14,210 nucleotides of DNA from Martensiomyces pterosporus (Eukaryota > Kickxellomycota > Kickxellomycetes > Kickxellales > Kickxellaceae), in contig MU603962.1 in assembly GCA_025201845.1 (NCBI GenBank), positions 115,602 to 129,811 on the forward strand, in the 5' to 3' direction. The notes under the pieces were generated by a model. That model ran no database searches, was not told where the DNA came from, and was given only the letters and a program-made list of their open reading frames with translations. Numbering within the stretch: the first letter of the stretch is position 1; every line of letters starts with the position of its first letter. The position numbers and the translations under genes are program-made. This document shows positions 1,636-13,686 of this stretch, one piece after another.

Positions 1636-2957
1636 ATGTCATCCGCCTTGGTTTCGCCTTCTCGCGCAGCAGACACCACTGCAGGAAAGAGCGCCGGTAC
1701 AGCTGTTGGCGTTGGTAAGAGCAGCCCTGAGCGTATGCTGCAGAGGCAGCAGACCCCCGTGCTAGAGGATGGCCAGGCCCTGGTGCCAAAGTCCGAGGGC
1801 GCAAAGCGCAAGCACTCGGTGATCATCACCACATCGAGCGGCGAGTTTGACCTCAACGACCTGCCGCCCCCCAGGCCCGGAAGACCCTCGGGGAAGACGC
1901 CCCAGGACCCGGCCATGCAGGAGGCCCGCAAGCGCGCTCGTGTGCTCCGCAACCGCGCAGCCGCCCAGCTCTCGCGCGAGAAGAAGCGCCAGCACCTCGA
2001 GCTGCTTGAGGCCGAGAACGCGGACTTGCGCGCCAAGAACGCGGAGCTCGAGAGGCGTCTGGGCAAGGCGGAGGGCGCCAACTTGGATCTCTCGGCTAAG
2101 CTCGATAACCTGGCCAAGCAGCTCCAGGACTTCCAGAATCTTATTCTTGGCAGCCAGAAGCAGCAGCAGGTGCTGCAGGTGCCTGTGCAGCGCCAGAGCA
2201 GCCTCACCCCTGTGGTCGACTGGAGCTCCATCCCTACCCCGCTTGCTGCCTCGCCGCTTGACCAGCCTCTGCACAGCGCACAGATTAGCATCAGTCCTAG
2301 CGACTCGACGTTCTCTCTTACCAACGCCACCGCATCCACAACCACTCCATCTCCCGCCCAAATGTCCCCATCCACCTCGTCCTCACCCACAGCTTCCATC
2401 ACAAAGTCAGCAGCAGCAGTCTCTGAGGCTTCGTCGATTCTCTCGGCGATGACCGGCACTACTGTCGCATCCACAGCCGATATGTCACCAACACCTGCCA
2501 TGGGGTTGTTTCCTAACGTAGCAGCGTCGTCAGAAATCTCTGGCAAGGGCTTGTCCGAGTCAGCAGCACTCGAACAGTCGGGCGCACACATTTACTGTGT
2601 TGCGCCTGATTCTCAGCAGCGGAGGCCCTTGCCGCGTATGGAGAGTTTCTACCGCAGGCTGCAGCAGCAGCAGCAGCAGCCTTCCAAGAGGGAGGCAGCA
2701 GCTCAAGCAGCAGCAGCATCAACAGCAACGTTGGAAGCATCTTCAGCCAGTTCATCGATGAGCTGGCGGCAGCGAATGGTCAAAACGGCAGTGCGCGCAA
2801 TAGTGTCGGCATCGGCGCAGAGCAGTCCGCAAGCGCTCTGGATGATATTCTGCGCCTTGTGGTGGATCCTGTGCCAAAATGGCGGATGGATCAGCAGACA
2901 CCAGCTTTCGCTCATAGCGCGTGGGATTTTGGAGTCTCCTCATCAACAGACCGCTAG
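1636..2957 (+). CDS. HAC1: Hac1/XBP1-type bZIP transcription factor, spliced form (join 1636-2563, 2617-2957)
   Basis: This is the predicted master regulator of the unfolded protein response, a nuclear DNA-binding activator. The basic region lies at residues 98-118 with the bZIP signature N106-x7-R114 (NRAAAQLSR) and the run SREKKR, close to yeast Hac1. A leucine zipper follows with heptad positions L124, L131, L138, A145, L152 and L159. Pro-rich sequence precedes the basic region, as in filamentous-fungal HacA; a Ser/Thr/Pro-rich linker follows. Removing 2564-2616 joins GAGTCAG to CAGCGG and gives a 422-residue protein. Its new tail contains a poly-Ala run, a Ser run, the acidic/hydrophobic patches SIFSQFIDEL and LDDILRLVVDPV, and AWDFGV near the end, all plausible activation-domain sequence. 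The stop is TAG 2955-2957. The start ATG has A at -3. The bZIP call is certain; Hac1 orthology and splicing are inferred from the basic region, the paired Ire1-type loops and the frame switch. Confidence 0.8.
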
Positions 2958-3219
2958 TGCAGCGATCCGCAAGCCCACCGCTGCTGTTGGAGGCAGCAGT
3001 GGGCTGGCGAGCCTGGGCCTGGTGGCCTCTTGGCTTGGCTCTGGATCGCGCACGGCGGCGGCGCTAAGGCGTGTTGTTGGGAACGGTCCGGTAGACCAAG
3101 TCAGCTCACTGGTTGCGAGACTGCATGCTGTTGCGCGGTCGATTGAGGGCCGCAAGCAGCGTGTGCACTCGAGCAGCCTTGTTTGTAATAAGCAAAAGAC
3201 CATGTTCTACCCACCCTGA
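1636..3219 (+). CDS. HAC1: Same bZIP gene, unspliced reading (527 aa)
   Basis: Without the 53-base removal, the frame stays open to TGA 3217-3219. It shares residues 1-309 with the spliced product, including the whole bZIP domain, but has an unrelated tail of about 218 residues. The tail holds Gln-6, an Ala-rich stretch, a Trp-rich hydrophobic segment at residues 400-413 (ALWMIFCALWWILC), then a Gly/Ala/Leu-rich part and a basic end. The overlap with the spliced frame is 2617-2957; beyond that the unspliced frame is open for another 87 codons. In animals the unspliced XBP1 product binds membranes and antagonises the spliced form; whether that holds here is unknown. The tail could also simply be out-of-frame sequence. 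Confidence 0.6.
   Translation: MSSALVSPSRAADTTAGKSAGTAVGVGKSSPERMLQRQQTPVLEDGQALVPKSEGAKRKHSVIITTSSGEFDLNDLPPPRPGRPSGKTPQDPAMQEARKRARVLRNRAAAQLSREKKRQHLELLEAENADLRAKNAELERRLGKAEGANLDLSAKLDNLAKQLQDFQNLILGSQKQQQVLQVPVQRQSSLTPVVDWSSIPTPLAASPLDQPLHSAQISISPSDSTFSLTNATASTTTPSPAQMSPSTSSSPTASITKSAAAVSEASSILSAMTGTTVASTADMSPTPAMGLFPNVAASSEISGKGLSESAALEQSGAHIYCVAPDSQQRRPLPRMESFYRRLQQQQQQPSKREAAAQAAAASTATLEASSASSSMSWRQRMVKTAVRAIVSASAQSSPQALWMIFCALWWILCQNGGWISRHQLSLIARGILESPHQQTASAAIRKPTAAVGGSSGLASLGLVASWLGSGSRTAAALRRVVGNGPVDQVSSLVARLHAVARSIEGRKQRVHSSSLVCNKQKTMFYPP
2564..2616 (+). other. Predicted Ire1-type non-canonical intron, 53 nt
   Basis: Two identical loops CAGCAGC occur at 2561-2567 and 2614-2620. 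Each matches the Ire1 loop consensus CNG|CNGN with cleavage after the first G (2563 and 2616). The 5' loop is closed by a five-pair stem (CGAGT 2556-2560 with ACTCG 2568-2572). The 3' loop is closed by a weaker stem (TTCT 2610-2613 with GGAG 2621-2624, two of its pairs G-U). The removed piece is 53 bases, 3n+2, which moves translation from the first frame to the third. The last third-frame stop upstream of the acceptor is TGA 2607-2609, inside the intron. The intron lacks GT...AG ends. Known Hac1/XBP1 introns of 20, 26, 56 and 65 bases share the 3n+2 length. Confidence 0.75.
2581..2606 (+). other. Hairpin inside the predicted Ire1 intron
   Basis: GGCGCACACA (2581-2590) pairs with TGTG-T-TGCGCC (2596-2606). 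This makes a ten-pair stem with a single bulged T at 2600 and the five-base loop TTTAC. It fills most of the space between the two cleavage stem-loops and would bring them side by side. This fits a three-stem arrangement suited to two cuts and exon ligation. Confidence 0.65.
2662..2679 (+). repeat. (CAG)6 tract read in two frames
   Basis: Six CAG triplets lie just after the predicted non-canonical intron. Read in the unspliced frame they encode Gln-6; read in the spliced frame they lie within an eight-Ala run. Length changes by whole triplets would keep both frames intact. Confidence 0.9.
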
Positions 3220-3676
3220 CATTCTTTTTCATCTGTTTCCTTTGTTTCTTTCGTTAATATCCCCTCTTTCACCACGTGCGGATGCTCCATTCCGCACACC
3301 TTGTTTCAATACAACAACGCTCTCTCATCATCCTCGCCGCATCCTTGCGCATGCTGTTTGGGCTGGCTGTGATCCATGGCTTGATCCGGCACTAGTAACA
3401 AGTGAAAAAATTTTATGTGCTTAATTTTTCTTGCCCTCCCTTTCTGCCAAACCCGGCGCTGCGATCCAGTGCTAAACACAAGGCGGGTGAGGCGGCAGAG
3501 ACAGGGCGGCTTTTCTGCTAAACTCTGCTCGCGCACCCACTGCTTGAATGCCTGTGTCTCTTGCTTGATTTTCCCCATCCGATAAGCTATCATTGCCACT
3601 ACATTTGCAGCCAGCAGCCTTTGCTGAAACAGCGCACCTTCACAGCCTCGATAGCAACGCCGATAGAAGAACAGGA
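3220..3676. other. Intergenic region between bZIP gene and nucleolar-type gene
   Basis: The left part is T/C-rich and would be bZIP 3' UTR. An AT-rich stretch at about 3400-3430 (AAAAAATTTTATGTGC and following T-rich bases) stands out from its surroundings and may mark 3'-end formation. A CCACGTG element lies at 3272-3278. No gene was found. Open frames here lack ATG starts or recognisable sequence. Confidence 0.55.
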
Positions 3677-5491
3677 ATGCCTGCTCGAGGCTCTACCTCA
3701 AAAGGCAGCAATGTGCCCAGCACACCGCCACGCGGGAATGCCCCCTCTCCTATTTCCACCCGCCTGCGTTCGCGGGTAAAGAGCCAGTCAACGCTGGACG
3801 AAGGCGACGCTGCTGATGCGCCCATGACCCCTACCACCACACGCGGACGGCGCTCTGTCTTGCGCAAGACTGCGTCGGAGGACCATAGCGAGGCGCCTGC
3901 GACGCCGTCGCGGAGGTCGACCAGGGCGGCGGCGAGAAAGGCGACCGACTTGATCCAGGACGAGGTTGCCGAATTGATGGGATCGCGCAAGAGAGCCACA
4001 AGGAAGGCACCCGCATCATCGGCCAAGAAGACAACTGGTGCGTCGTTGGCAGAGGAGATGCTGCCGGCTACACCCACGGGGAAAACAACAAAGGCGAGTA
4101 GCCATACACGCAGAGTAGCGAAGATTGAGGAGGAGGAGGAGGTAGCGAAGAAGGCACCCACAGGCACAAATCGCCCATCTAAGGCCGCCAAGAAGCCGTC
4201 GGAGGAGTCGGTGGCGACTGAAGGCGAGAAGCGTGGAAAGACCAGCCTTCCTCCACCACACCCCGACCTTGCTGCCGCCGAAGAAATGCCCAGTGCCGCT
4301 GCTGCTGCGGCGTTGGACAATAGCCAGTTCAAGTCGGCGAGCCAGTCGGCTGACGAGAACTACCATACTGCGCCTGAGAGCCCCGTGAAGCCAGACGCTG
4401 GTGCGCCGGTTGCTAAGGAGAACCGCAGTGTTTCATCTGCTGCTGTTGGTACAAAGGGGGAGGAGGAAAGCTTTGAAAGCGAAGAGGACGAGATCTCGGA
4501 TCTAAGCGATATCGACGACCCCCACTTCACTGAGATTATGACCAGTGAAGCTGCCACCGCAGCTCTTTCGGCCGCTGGTTCCACGCCTGCTGCGTCTGTG
4601 CACGAGGACGAAGAAGCCGACGCTGAGGAGAGGCTCGAAGGTGCTGCTGAAGATGCGTCTGGGTCTGAACCACAGGCCAAGAGCAGCCATGTGGTATTCG
4701 ACTCTGACGCAGAGGCTGAGAGCGACAGCGAGAGCGATGACGAGGCCGCCACAACCGCCGCACCGGCTGGCTTTGCTGCCAAGGGCGCTGATATGGACAG
4801 CGACAGCGACGACGAGGCACCAGAGGTTGTGTCCACAAAGACAGCTCCTCGCCCAGAGCCCGTAGAGGCTAACGGCAGAAGCGAGACTGAGGCCGTCGTG
4901 CCCGCAGCCAAAGAGAGCGAGCAACAAAAGACGAAAAAGAAGCACCGTGCTCGGCACCGCAAACGTGCAGTGCCTGCGACAGTTGTCAAGGATATTTCCA
5001 CGACGATGGATAATGTCGCTAGAATGAAGAGCCGCCCAGGGCTGTTCCGCCCGACAGAGATCCCCGAGGAGCTTCGTCTTGAAGAAGATGCTGGGCTCGC
5101 AGAGGCAAGTTCGGCTCCTGCTGCCAAGCGGCCTACGGCCGGCGACAGGATTGACATGTCGGTGCTGGCAGAGTTTGCACAGGAGTCGAAGAAGCGGGCC
5201 AAGGACGAGGCTGACCAGGACAGCGAGGACGGGCTGGCAGAGAGGAGAAGGAAGGACAAGAAGAGGAAGAAGAGCAAGGGCAAGGACTCGCGTGTCGTCT
5301 CGGGCATCCGCGTGGTTTCAACAAGGCCTGCCAAGAAAGCTAGCCTTTTGGAAACCCTCTCGCAGAAGGTGCCGGACACGGTCAGGAGCTTCAGCAAGAA
5401 GAAGAGAGGCGCAAGAGGCATCAAGCGCTCAAACCCTCTTGTTGGAATAGCTCGCCACAACAACCAGCCAGCTATCAATTTCTTCAAGTAG
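3677..5491 (+). CDS. Acidic/basic nucleolar-type protein, possible U3 snoRNP-associated Utp16/Bud21-like
   Basis: A 604-residue, almost entirely low-complexity protein, with no signal peptide or membrane segment. The N-terminal part (1-170) is basic, with Thr-Pro sites and Arg/Ala/Lys-rich stretches such as RSTRAAARKA. A Glu run and Lys-rich stretches follow. The middle (about 270-395) alternates Ser/Asp/Glu-rich acidic blocks, including HVVFDSDAE and DSDSDDEAPEVVS. Next come a basic block (KKKHRARHRKR), a Lys/Arg-rich probable nuclear/nucleolar signal (RRRKDKKRKKSKGK, about 523-536) and a C-terminal segment starting SGIRVVS. The DSDSDDEAPE motif, Lys-rich block and GIRVV segment recall the U3 snoRNA-associated family (Utp16/Bud21) of small-subunit processing factors. 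This rests on memory of the family pattern, and low complexity weakens it. ATG 3677 is the first ATG in the frame; a longer open frame exists only from a TTG. No intron is needed. Confidence 0.85.
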   Translation: MPARGSTSKGSNVPSTPPRGNAPSPISTRLRSRVKSQSTLDEGDAADAPMTPTTTRGRRSVLRKTASEDHSEAPATPSRRSTRAAARKATDLIQDEVAELMGSRKRATRKAPASSAKKTTGASLAEEMLPATPTGKTTKASSHTRRVAKIEEEEEVAKKAPTGTNRPSKAAKKPSEESVATEGEKRGKTSLPPPHPDLAAAEEMPSAAAAAALDNSQFKSASQSADENYHTAPESPVKPDAGAPVAKENRSVSSAAVGTKGEEESFESEEDEISDLSDIDDPHFTEIMTSEAATAALSAAGSTPAASVHEDEEADAEERLEGAAEDASGSEPQAKSSHVVFDSDAEAESDSESDDEAATTAAPAGFAAKGADMDSDSDDEAPEVVSTKTAPRPEPVEANGRSETEAVVPAAKESEQQKTKKKHRARHRKRAVPATVVKDISTTMDNVARMKSRPGLFRPTEIPEELRLEEDAGLAEASSAPAAKRPTAGDRIDMSVLAEFAQESKKRAKDEADQDSEDGLAERRRKDKKRKKSKGKDSRVVSGIRVVSTRPAKKASLLETLSQKVPDTVRSFSKKKRGARGIKRSNPLVGIARHNNQPAINFFK

Positions 5492-9559: not shown

Positions 9560-12500
9560 ATGCCGTAAGTTTGCTCGCCTCTCGGTTGGCAATTTCAACG
9601 CAATTCGCACGCTGCTTTGGCTGACATGCCAGCAGCAGCAGCAGCAGCAGCAGCAGTGCCAGCAGTGCCAGCACCACCAGGGGCTTGCTGGGAGTGTGCC
9701 ATGTCTCCGCCACAGCGAAACCCTCTTTCATTACGTGCATGGACAAAGTGTCTCGCATATATGCCTGCAATGCCACAACTAATTCGCAAGGCTCATGCCT
9801 TCAATTACGCGCATCTTGTAGATCCCTACCGCAAGAACGGTTGGTTCAGGCCAAGGCGGTGAAATCGGCGACGCTGCACCGGCGGCTGCCGCTTTTCCAG
9901 CACACGTACATCTGGCCATTCACCTTTGTTTACCCAGCATGGCTGTACATTTACACTCTGCGCTATGACGACTTTCTGGGCTCGCAAGAGTTCACGGTTC
10001 TGTCCCTGATCATCGTGTTCATGTCGCAGGCACTCGTGTTTCTTATGTGCCAGTGGAGCGTCAATGTTCGCGCGCTGTTTACCTGCCAAAAGGTGGACGA
10101 CCCGTACGAGGCCGAGCTTGTCAAGGTTATCGCTGCTGACCACCTGGGGAAGAGTGCCATGTGCGAGATGCTGTTTGGAATTAATGTCCACGACGAAACT
10201 CGCCCCCAGCTTTCGTTCGTGTTCCAGGCCCTAAAGTACATCTACGACGATGACAAAAAGATATTCAGCCCTGTCACCTACCCCTCCGACAGCTGCCCGC
10301 CGCTCGGAGAGCTTCAGAGGTCCACGGGTCTCTCTGACGAGGTCGCGATCAGCGAGGCGCTTGAGATTTATGGCGAGAACAAGTTCCTCGTCCCGATCCC
10401 GACGTTTATGGATCTGTTCAAGGAGCACGCAGTCGCGCCTTTCTTTGTGTTCCAGATCTTTTGCGTCGGTCTGTGGTGCATGGACGAGTACTGGTACTAC
10501 TCCATCTTTACTCTGGTCATGCTTGTTGTGTTCGAGTCCACTCTGGTGTTCCAGCGCCAGCGCACCCTGAACGAATTCCGGTCGCTGTCGATGCACCCGT
10601 ACAAGATCCACGCCCTCCGCAACGGCGAGTGGGCTGAGATCGGAACCGAGGCCCTGTGCCCTGGCGATGTCATTTCTGTTGTGCGCTCGGCTGAAGACAG
10701 CGGAGTCCCCTGCGACGTCATCCTGCTTGAGGGCACGTGCATTGTGAACGAGGCCATGCTCTCTGGAGAGTCGACGCCCCAGCTCAAGGAGCCCATCCAC
10801 CTGCGCGACCACACGGACTTGCTGGATATGGAGGGCGCTGACAAGAACAGCATGCTGTTTGGCGGAACCAAGGTGCTTCAGGTAGAGGCTCCTGCGGAGT
10901 CGAGCAAGATTGCGACTCCCGACGGAGGCTGTGCCTGCTACGTTCTGCGCACTGGCTTTGGCACTTCGCAGGGCGAACTCGTGCGCACGATGATCCACAG
11001 CACCGAGCGCGTGTCTGCCGACAACATGGAGTCGTATCTGTTCATCTGCTTCCTCCTCATCTTTGCCATCCTTGCCTCTGCCTACGTGTGGGTCCAGGGT
11101 AGCAAGGATGCCCGTCGCTCCAAGTCCAAGATTCTGCTCGACTGCGTTCTCATCATCACCTCGGTTGTCCCGCCCGAGCTTCCCATGGAGCTCTCGATGG
11201 CTGTGAACTCGTCGCTGATGGCTCTTTCTCGCTTGGCTATCTTCTGCACCGAGCCGTTCCGCATCCCCCACGCTGGAAAGATCGACATTTGCTGCTTCGA
11301 CAAGACCGGAACCCTGACTGGCGAGGACCTTGTTGTCGAGGGCGTTGCCGGCTCTCCTGGATCGACAGACCCCTCGAAGCTGAGCAGCGCTCAGTCCGTT
11401 AGCCGTGACACTGCCCTGACCCTGGCCAGCGCCCATGCTCTGGTCCAGCTGGAGGACGGCGAGCTGGTCGGCGACCCCATGGAGCGCACCCAGCTCGAAG
11501 CGATTGGGTTCAAGCTTGTTACCAGCGACATCATCGTCCCCGATGTCTCATGCGCCCGGGTTATCGACAAGATGGGTATCAGCTCTGACAAGCTGAAGAT
11601 CACTGTTGCCCGCCGCTTCCCCTTCTCCTCGGCGCTTAAGCGCAGTGCGACGCTCAGCGTTGTCAGCGGACTTGGCTCGAGCGTGAGCAAGGCCAAGCAC
11701 GACTACTTTGTTGCGGCCAAGGGCGCGCCGGAGACCCTGCGTGGCATGCTTCGCTCGGTTCCTAGCTGGTACGACGAAACGTACAAGGCGTTCAGCCGCC
11801 GCGGTGGCCGTGTGCTTACTCTCGGGTGCAAGTGGATGCCGCGCAATGCTGCACTCACGGAGCAGGAGCTCAACGATCTGCCGCGCGACGAGATCGAGGC
11901 TGACCTGGAGTTCCAGGGGTTCCTTGTCTTTAGCTGCCCGCTCAAGCCCGACTCTGCGGACGCGATCAAGATGCTCAACGAATCGTCTCACCGCTGCGTC
12001 ATGATCACCGGCGACAGCCCGTTGACTGCGTCGCATGTTGCTCGCGAAGTCGGCATCGTTGACCGAGGCGTTTTGATCTTTGATGCCCCGCACAGCTCTG
12101 AGGTCAAGGAGGGCGAGGCTCGCACCATCAGCTGCGTCTCCATTGACGAGGCTGTGTCGTTTGACATTGACACTAACGATGCGCCCCGCATGAAGCGCAT
12201 CATGGATGGCTGGGACCTCTGCATTACCGGGTCGGCGCTTGAGCTCTTGGAGGGCACGATGCTGTGGAAGGACTACCTGCTTCACCACGCGTGGATCTAT
12301 GCCCGCGTCAGCCCCTCGCAGAAGGAGTTTATCCTGACCGAGTACAAGCTTGCGGACTACATTACGCTCATGTGCGGCGACGGCACCAACGATGTCGGCG
12401 CGCTCAAGCAGGCGCATGTCGGCGTGGCTCTTTTGAACGGAAGCCCGGAGGACCTGCAGGCGATTGCGGAGCGGCAGCAGATTGAGCGGCTCAAGCAGGC

Positions 12501-13686
12501 GTACGATGCGCAGTGCAAGATCGCTCGCCGCTTCAACCAGCCCCCGCCCAACCCGCCGCCGATGCTCAAGAAGCACATGGACAACCTTGCTGCCAAGGGG
12601 AAGGAGCGCGAGAAGGAGAGCAGAGAGGAGCGCAAGCGCATCATTGCCGCTGGCGGATCGGTTTCCAAGGCAGCGATCGAGGAGGAGAAGAAGAGGGCTG
12701 AGGCTGCCAAGAAGGCTGAGGAGCTGGAGCGCGAGGCTGCTGACCAGCGGCGCAACGCCAACCCGCAGGCGGAGGACCTCCACTCCAAGATGAGCGAGTG
12801 GATGATGCAGATGGACACGATGGAGGACGACGTTCCCGTGCTCAAGTTTGGCGATGCGTCGGTTGCAGCGCCGTTCACCTCGAAGCTTGGCAGCATCAAC
12901 GCCATCTGCAACATTGTGCGCCAGGGACGCAGCACCCTTGTGGCTACTACTCAGATGTACAAGATCCTCGGGCTGACGTGTCTGATCTCGGCATACAGTC
13001 TGAGCGTGCTGTACCTTGAGGGCATCAAGTTTGGCGACTGGCAGGCGACGATCATGGGCGCCCTGATGTCTGTTTGCTTCCTGTGCATTTCCAAGTCGTC
13101 GCCCCTCGAGAAGCTGTCCAGGGAGCGTCCCCAGGCAAACATTCTCAGCGTCTACATGCTGCTCACGGTCCTTGGCCAGTTTGCTGTCCACGTTGGCGCC
13201 CTTGTTTTCCTGACCCTCGAGGTGCGCAAGTACGAGCCGTCGGGCGAGGTCGACGTTGAGGGCGACTTTGAGCCCAGCCTGCTGAACACGGCCATGTACC
13301 TGATTTCGCTCTCGCAGCAGGTGTCGACGTTTGCGATCAACTACCAGGGCTACCCGTTCCGCGAGGCCCTGAAGGACAACAAGGTTCTGTACCGCGGCCT
13401 GGTGGGCGTCGGGGGCATCGCCGCTGCGTGCGCCACCGAGATGATCCCTGACTTCAACGCGTACCTCAAGCTCGTTCCGATGCCCGAGAAGTTCCGCGAC
13501 GTCGTCTGCATCACCATGGCAGCCGACTACGCGCTGGCGTATTTGGTCGAGAAGGTCTGCGCCTTCATGTTCGCCGACTACTCGGCCAAGCCCATCGCCC
13601 ATCGCGAGCCCGTGGAGAAGACCGTCCAGATGCCCGACTACGGGACCAAGGCGGCTGCTCTGCAGGTGGCCGAGAAGCAAAAATAA
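9560..13686 (+). CDS. SPF1: P5A-type ATPase Spf1 (join 9560-9564, 9822-13686)
   Basis: An ER-membrane P5A ATPase (yeast Spf1, human ATP13A1 family), known to pull mis-inserted transmembrane segments from the ER membrane. Exon one is only ATGCC; splicing to 9822 gives MPSLPQERLVQ and a 1289-residue protein, against about 1200 for relatives. In order: an N-terminal P5-specific membrane hairpin (HTYIWPFTFVYPAWLYIY and FTVLSLIIVFMSQALVFLM), the A-domain SGES loop (316-319), the M4 signature PPELP (452-456), the phosphorylation motif DKTGTLT (Asp495), TGDSPLT, and the hinge GDGTNDV (Asp855). A charged, Pro-containing insert of about 125 residues (about 875-1000) with Lys/Glu/Ala-rich helix follows, then the C-terminal membrane segments. 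Alternative starts within the intron (in-frame ATG 9739) would give an unusual Cys-rich N-terminus; I favour the spliced one. Confidence 0.96.
9565..9821 (+). other. Spliceosomal intron in SPF1 after a five-base coding exon, 257 nt
   Basis: A perfect GTAAGT donor follows ATGCC directly. The acceptor is CTTGTAG ending at 9821. The junction codon CCA keeps the frame, and the resulting N-terminus runs directly into the conserved VKSATLHRRLPLFQHTY segment. The intron holds a (CAG)9 tract at 9630-9656. Confidence 0.8.
9630..9656 (+). repeat. (CAG)9 tract in SPF1 intron
   Basis: Nine perfect CAG triplets, followed by imperfect TGCCAGCAG copies, lie in the first intron of SPF1. As a non-coding microsatellite it is likely length-variable. 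Confidence 0.9.

Follow-up and report, generated by a model that had tools for sequence, protein, structure and literature searches.

Does the bZIP gene at this locus of Martensiomyces pterosporus, a species of the order Kickxellales, give rise to an mRNA that Ire1 cuts and that is then rejoined in a second reading frame, and, if it does, is the frame read from the uncut mRNA of any use to the cell? A sequence-only reading of the locus had proposed that this mRNA is an Ire1 substrate of the Hac1/XBP1 type. We examined the proposal by RNA folding, comparison with relatives, simulation of the overlapping frames and structure prediction. On the sequence evidence assembled here, we consider it very probable that the gene is a Hac1/XBP1 orthologue and an Ire1-spliced switch with two outputs, in which the product of the unspliced (U) frame probably assists or restrains the pathway that the product of the spliced (S) frame would drive.

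The window, that is, the whole 14,210-nt stretch of DNA that was analysed, contains ubiquitin repeats, the bZIP gene and genes for an Elongin-A-domain protein, a phosphomannomutase and a P5A-type ATPase. The features of the bZIP gene are listed in Table 1. In the interval from the ubiquitin gene to the bZIP gene, a 129-bp unit is present in two tandem copies (713-973, 96% matches). An ORF of 632 aa (3593-5491) has no Pfam match at E <= 0.001. The P5A-type ATPase gene (9685-13686) shares its window with HAC1; the Aspergillus P5-type ATPase SpfA appears in UPR-related literature, as in PMC8524344.

Table 1. Coordinates of features of the bZIP gene, numbered from the first letter of the window
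Feature	Position	Strand	Remarks
Unspliced (U) frame, Hac1-type bZIP gene	1636..3219	+	527 aa
bZIP region, residues 94-165	1915..2130	+	Pfam bZIP_2 (PF07716), 26 bits, E 9.5e-6, cut-off 22.3
Outer stem, 5' arm GGCAAGGGC	2542..2550	+	pairs with 2625-2633, probabilities 0.99-1.0; covariation
5' Ire1 hairpin	2556..2572	+	stem 2556-2560/2568-2572, loop 2561-2567, predicted cut after 2563
Predicted non-conventional intron, 53 nt	2564..2616	+	junction is that of published model P0003
Hairpin inside intron	2577..2610	+	14 pairs, one bulge
3' Ire1 hairpin (weak)	2611..2623	+	stem 2611-2613/2621-2623, loop 2614-2620, predicted cut after 2616
Exon 2, spliced (S) frame	2617..2957	+	joined to 1636-2563 gives a 422-aa protein; S-frame tails in P0001-P0004
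Outer stem, 3' arm GCCCUUGCC	2625..2633	+	pairs with 2542-2550
Six predicted helices, residues 377-511	2764..3168	+	U frame, crosses the S stop; AlphaFold2
Trp-rich hydrophobic helix, residues 398-414	2827..2877	+	U frame; motif in 35 of the 43 sequences examined (including the window)
S-frame motif DDILRLVVD, putatively activation-domain-like	2841..2867	+	small changes in P0002, P0003, P0004
U-only coding tail past the S stop	2958..3219	+	identity above linker in 23 of 25 relatives
Pro-Pro-stop terminating the U frame	3211..3219	+	Pro-Pro end in 21 of 35 U-tail proteins, window included

Loops, RNA fold and splicing machinery

As in the Ire1-spliced bZIP genes of the Hac1/XBP1 group, the bZIP domain lies upstream of the splice sites, and the sites themselves fall in two stem-loops with 7-nt CNG|CNGN loops. 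The earlier description of two CAGCAGC loops 53 nt apart, the first in a clean five-pair stem and the second in a weaker one, proved accurate. The 5 pairs of the 5' stem have probabilities of 0.92-0.97, whereas the 3' stem has at most four possible pairs, two of them G-U, and its inner three form at a probability of about 0.1. We take the 5' hairpin, GAGUC(A)GCAGCACUC, to be near-identical to that of human XBP1.

Folding of the RNA, which had been put forward as a check, gave -48.8 kcal/mol for the 101-nt region compared with a mean of -34.1 for shuffled sequences (z -4.06), and none of 200 shuffles was as good. The structure in which both loops form lies 1.4 kcal/mol above this minimum, at -47.4. 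Two elements that had escaped the sequence-only reading accompany the loops, namely a strong outer stem of 9 bp that links the two exons and the hairpin inside the intron. Lone CNGCNGN motifs are frequent, with 35 in the gene. When loop pairs were sought on both strands of the whole window (stems of at least 5 and at least 3 bp, a spacing of 15-300 and 3n+2), the CAGCAGC pair was the sole one to qualify.

The Rfam model of the Hac1/Xbp1 intron, RF04247, matches the region from end to end at 19.6 bits, below its 41-bit cut-off, and a search of the whole genome placed the best matches elsewhere, at 23.8 and 20.4 bits. Because of the sub-cut-off score and the better-scoring matches elsewhere in the genome, Rfam by itself lends no support. 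The RF04247 family is described in PMC11701678 as found in Metazoa. The top match of the genome (L009; G000:C146:17751-17817) lies at a locus occupied by a single long polyglutamine-rich ORF, and it is probably a chance match.

Genomes with a gene of the Hac1/XBP1 group are expected to encode Ire1 and an RNA ligase, and searches of the same genome (a 17.4-Mb assembly) recovered both. The sole KEN-domain match lies in an ORF of 1847 codons in which a kinase domain and, weakly, PQQ_2 are matched as well; we read this ORF as one Ire1. A Trl1-type ligase with its three domains is present in single copy, and RtcB had no match in the genome. A search for bZIP paralogues found none closer than E 3e-5.

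The predicted frame switch and its traces in relatives

With the 53 nt (3n+2) removed, translation ends at 2955-2957 after 422 aa and no longer at 3217-3219 after 527 aa, so that both ends of the frame change originally predicted hold. The frame switch to a conserved C-terminus that characterises this group of genes is seen here in the 3n+2 length together with the S-frame tails of the published models P0001-P0004. Codon usage scores, trained on four adjacent reading frames, are strongly positive in frame 0 as far as about 2300 and then hover around zero until about 2660; in one part of this interval (about 2300-2420) the S frame scores above frame 0. In windows beginning at 2660-2780 they are positive in the S frame only (8.9, 14.7 and 4.9), and near 3080-3260, past the S stop, frame 0 is positive once more.

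A search with the spliced protein returned 38 matches, of which 36 are named Martensiomyces, Coemansia, Linderina or Kickxella, one is unnamed and one is Entomortierella; we take Coemansia, Linderina and Kickxella to be genera of the Kickxellales. The nearest named protein is P0001, a model from M. pterosporus that matches at 97% across 43% of the query. It follows the window across the N-terminus and the S-frame tail but enters the tail via other junctions, and thus the public model looks wrong there. In the public models P0001, P0002, P0004 and P0009, the S frame is entered, or the Ire1 intron left out, by way of differing junctions, which are probably prediction artefacts.

Comparison with relatives, which had also been suggested as a check, was carried out on tail-bearing proteins selected for a downstream Trp-rich motif, independently of the loops; counting the window, 35 of the 43 sequences examined carry it. 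Of these 35, 34 contain the peptides that correspond to the two loops, ESA(A/V) and SQQR, the exception, P0009, being a model that skips the stretch. A longer pattern, which itself requires the loop peptides, was matched by 32 of 40 sequences; the remaining eight are either spliced or truncated, have been modelled in another way or are distant. The intron lengths deduced by whole codons in the 32 are 41 (5 sequences), 50 (2), 53 (24) and 59 (1), and since they are 3n+2 by construction they add no extra evidence. At the second base of the outer stem and its partner, the same 32 sequences encode Gly/Pro (17), Asp/Ser (6), Ser/Gln (5), Gly/Ser (3) and Ser/Pro (1). Asp, which places an A at the pairing base, occurs solely with Ser (6/6), and a mismatch at this pair is forced in none of the 32, although this covariation may represent few events because the species are related. 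Several relatives have K-D instead of K-G, which by our codon reading would cost one inner pair.

The junction itself is found in the published model P0003 of Coemansia mojavensis, BX667DRAFT_493669, in which SKGLSESAA is followed by DVLAIYGEYL, that is, by the spliced frame, joined as SESAA|DVLAIYGE. When the S frame of P0003 is set against the U frame of P0035, a near relative, one DNA sequence fits their overlap, and in that sequence exon 2 begins CAGCGG. The overlap of P0002 and P0021 likewise fits one DNA, P0002 itself being joined elsewhere upstream. As a control, the frame-pair procedure recovered the DNA of the window except for a few ambiguous bases, and the negative control, P0003 with P0032 from a different species, failed as expected. 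The exact bond in P0003 is ambiguous by a few bases because CAGCAGC is repeated in the loops; by our reading, none of the equivalent placements would fit a GT-AG or GC-AG intron. The junction may reflect transcript evidence or the output of a gene predictor. Together, the loop pair and its fold, codon usage, the loop peptides in 34 of 35 proteins, the P0003 junction and the presence of Ire1 and a Trl1-type ligase favour the proposal that this mRNA is an Ire1 substrate, and the predicted Ire1-type splicing of 2563 to 2617 is thus well supported.

The unspliced frame and its possible roles

The unspliced form is often regarded as a mere precursor, and the sequence-only reading had treated the U frame at this locus as discarded sequence. 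The frame is instead conserved in relatives over about 200 codons, 86 of them beyond the S stop. A search with U residues 300-527 returned 30 proteins named Coemansia, Kickxella or Linderina at 46-60% identity. Mean identity between the window and 25 aligned relatives is highest in the bZIP region (0.76), followed by the dual-coded core (0.64) and the U-only tail (0.47), and lowest in the linker (0.34).

Constraint on the two frames was examined in a gap-free block of 61 codons, with DNA known or inferred, from three lineages, none of which has a stop in either frame; the three species pairs overlap in their lineages and are thus not independent. When only the U frame was constrained in simulation, the observed plain S identity was reached in 46, 55 and 183 of 500 runs for the three pairs, and in the S-only calibration no constraint beyond stops was needed for two of the three pairs. 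The plain-identity result for constraint on the S frame is weak. The similarity-weighted test, with weighting applied to both acceptance and scoring, was positive: of 1000 U-only simulations for each pair, 0, 10 and 1 attained the S score that was observed, and 3, 9 and 10 attained the codon-position pattern. In the converse simulation, in which only the S frame was constrained, the observed U identity was reached in 6, 0 and 9 of 500. The U frame is clearly under constraint, and the S frame is probably under additional constraint in the overlap. The apparent conservation of two endings that share one stretch of DNA suggests a function proper to the uncut form.

AlphaFold2 predicts six helices in the U tail (residues 377-390, 398-414, 421-433, 454-466, 472-481 and 483-511). 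Averaged over 10 residues, pLDDT lies mostly at 76-93 within the helices, drops to 66-70 at certain edges and is below 50 in the loop 440-452. The full U model has a mean pLDDT of 61 and a pTM of 0.37, and the tail modelled alone gave the same helices with a mean of 70 and a pTM of 0.55. It is a real possibility, if short of a probability, that the U protein is itself a complete regulator, in which the bZIP and a helical C-terminal domain would serve to dimerise with the S form and restrain or destabilise it, or to act on separate targets. The mostly good confidence of the six predicted helices and the higher identity of the U-only tail than of the linker are consistent with such a domain. Furthermore, pXBP1(U) is described as sending pXBP1(S) to degradation (PMC5636610), and data from A. 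fumigatus suggest functions for unspliced hacA (PMC7580959). The pTM values are modest, however, and structural searches with the U tail gave no informative match and no recognisable fold or family.

The Trp-rich helix points to another role, which we put forward more tentatively. The U nascent chain, with the hydrophobic helix outside the ribosome and slow termination at the Pro-Pro-stop, may carry its uncut message to the ER membrane in the vicinity of Ire1. A hydrophobic segment within the U-specific tail, as in XBP1u-type recruitment, is indeed present and widely shared (Table 1). Its maximum 15-residue Kyte-Doolittle value is 1.83, compared with 1.86 for an assumed sequence of the human XBP1u tail, and it lies 100-153 residues ahead of the C-terminus in all but one 908-aa model. 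However, the peak 15-residue hydropathy of the protein falls in this helix in just 19 of 35 sequences, and the 19-residue peak of the window protein lies elsewhere and is lower than in the assumed XBP1u sequence (1.32 versus 1.62). As one of six helices that possibly form a folded domain, it may also belong to a core instead of serving as an anchor. The Pro-Pro end, which would slow termination, occurs in 21 of the 29 apparently complete tails (the 35 minus four named partial and two with divergent model ends), but the other 8 lack it. Stalling of ribosomes at stop codons is reported for terminal diproline in PMC9648851, and the Pro-Pro-stop is a candidate pause only. In animals, the XBP1u nascent chain is described as tethering its message at the ER (PMC4138184, PMC6624018, PMC10501990).

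More doubtful is a fuller proposal, that the HAC1 mRNA of the Kickxellales carries two selected C-terminal modules in overlapping frames. The U module would be a helical domain of a new kind, and its nascent chain would pause at the Pro-Pro-stop with its last helix in the tunnel, while the hydrophobic helix tethers the message to the ER beside Ire1, an XBP1u-like arrangement that would be either ancestral to animals and fungi or independently evolved. We speculate that pausing, if real, would keep the last helix in the tunnel, so that the domain would be unable to close and the hydrophobic helix would be exposed.

It is very improbable that the spliced frame alone matters and that the open U frame is a by-product of GC-rich DNA. 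Codon usage of Martensiomyces in the windows beginning at 2660-2780, favouring S and negative for U, would agree with a by-product, but the U frame stays open and conserved past the S stop, and S-only simulation seldom reached its observed identity. Likewise very improbable is a conventional spliceosomal intron at 2518-2657, the main alternative named in the sequence-only reading, which has GT and AG in place and a length of 140 nt (3n+2) that could cause the frame change, but which would delete the flank and the loop-encoding peptide conserved across unspliced models, whereas the joined P0003 retains both SKGLSESAA and DVLAIYGEYL.

We therefore return to the Ire1-spliced switch with two outputs. 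Under ER stress, Ire1 would cut the mRNA after G2563 and G2616, and the Trl1-type tRNA ligase would join the exons. The joined mRNA would encode a 422-aa bZIP protein, whose acidic and hydrophobic C-terminus would make it an activator. Without splicing, the 527-aa protein would be made, its C-terminus of about 200 residues forming a second conserved product that partly overlaps S in another frame. This U product would most likely help to keep the mRNA from which it is being translated at the ER, or else serve as a stress-off partner or inhibitor. By analogy, the core steps of Ire1 cleavage, ligation and the switch to an activator would be those of the established Hac1/XBP1 pathway.

Comparison with known systems and significance

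The dual-frame idea was reportedly put forward for vertebrate XBP1 by Nekrutenko and He in 2006. Metazoan XBP1 is likewise a bZIP gene with paired CNG|CNGN loops and a frame shift, and its overlapping U frame is described as having a hydrophobic segment (HR2; PMC4138184). In contrast to the Trl1-type ligase here, metazoa are reported to use RTCB (PMC4891664). The intron is 53 nt here and reportedly 26 nt in metazoan XBP1, and the extra hairpin and the long outer stem are features of the present gene. The U tail is also longer than that of XBP1u, with six predicted helices, and ends in Pro-Pro-stop, a candidate pause site; XBP1u has an arrest peptide.

Among fungi, the HAC1 system of Saccharomyces cerevisiae likewise includes Ire1 and Trl1, and the basic region here is presumably Hac1-type as in that gene. 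The S. cerevisiae intron is 252 nt, and PMC3154848 describes silencing of the unspliced mRNA by pairing between the 5'UTR and the intron, whereas the gene studied here has a conserved U tail. A search for such 5'UTR-intron pairing here found none better than in shuffled sequences (-27.7 versus a mean of -30.3). Cryptococcus neoformans HXL1 has an Ire1 intron of similar kind, given as 56 nt with CAG borders (PMC3154848), but belongs to a different lineage. Aspergillus hacA resembles the present gene in its overlapping U and S frames and in an unspliced form with proposed functions (PMC7580959), and differs in an intron given as 20 nt (PMC3154848).

Among the matches listed in searches of the open-access literature, there was nothing on Hac1 splicing in Kickxellomycota, no fungal XBP1u-like U tail and no conserved fungal U-specific domain, and no open-access paper with both Coemansia and HAC1 was found. 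Our results would thus extend Ire1/Hac1 splicing to the Kickxellomycota with comparative evidence, and they indicate that the published M. pterosporus model needs correction. With regard to a possible role of the unspliced protein in fungi, on which the inhibitor data from A. fumigatus in PMC7580959 bear, the conserved U-specific helical tail, present in the models of 34 relatives, is a concrete object for testing. Additionally, it offers a chance to ask whether the targeting of mRNA by a nascent chain may be older than animals.
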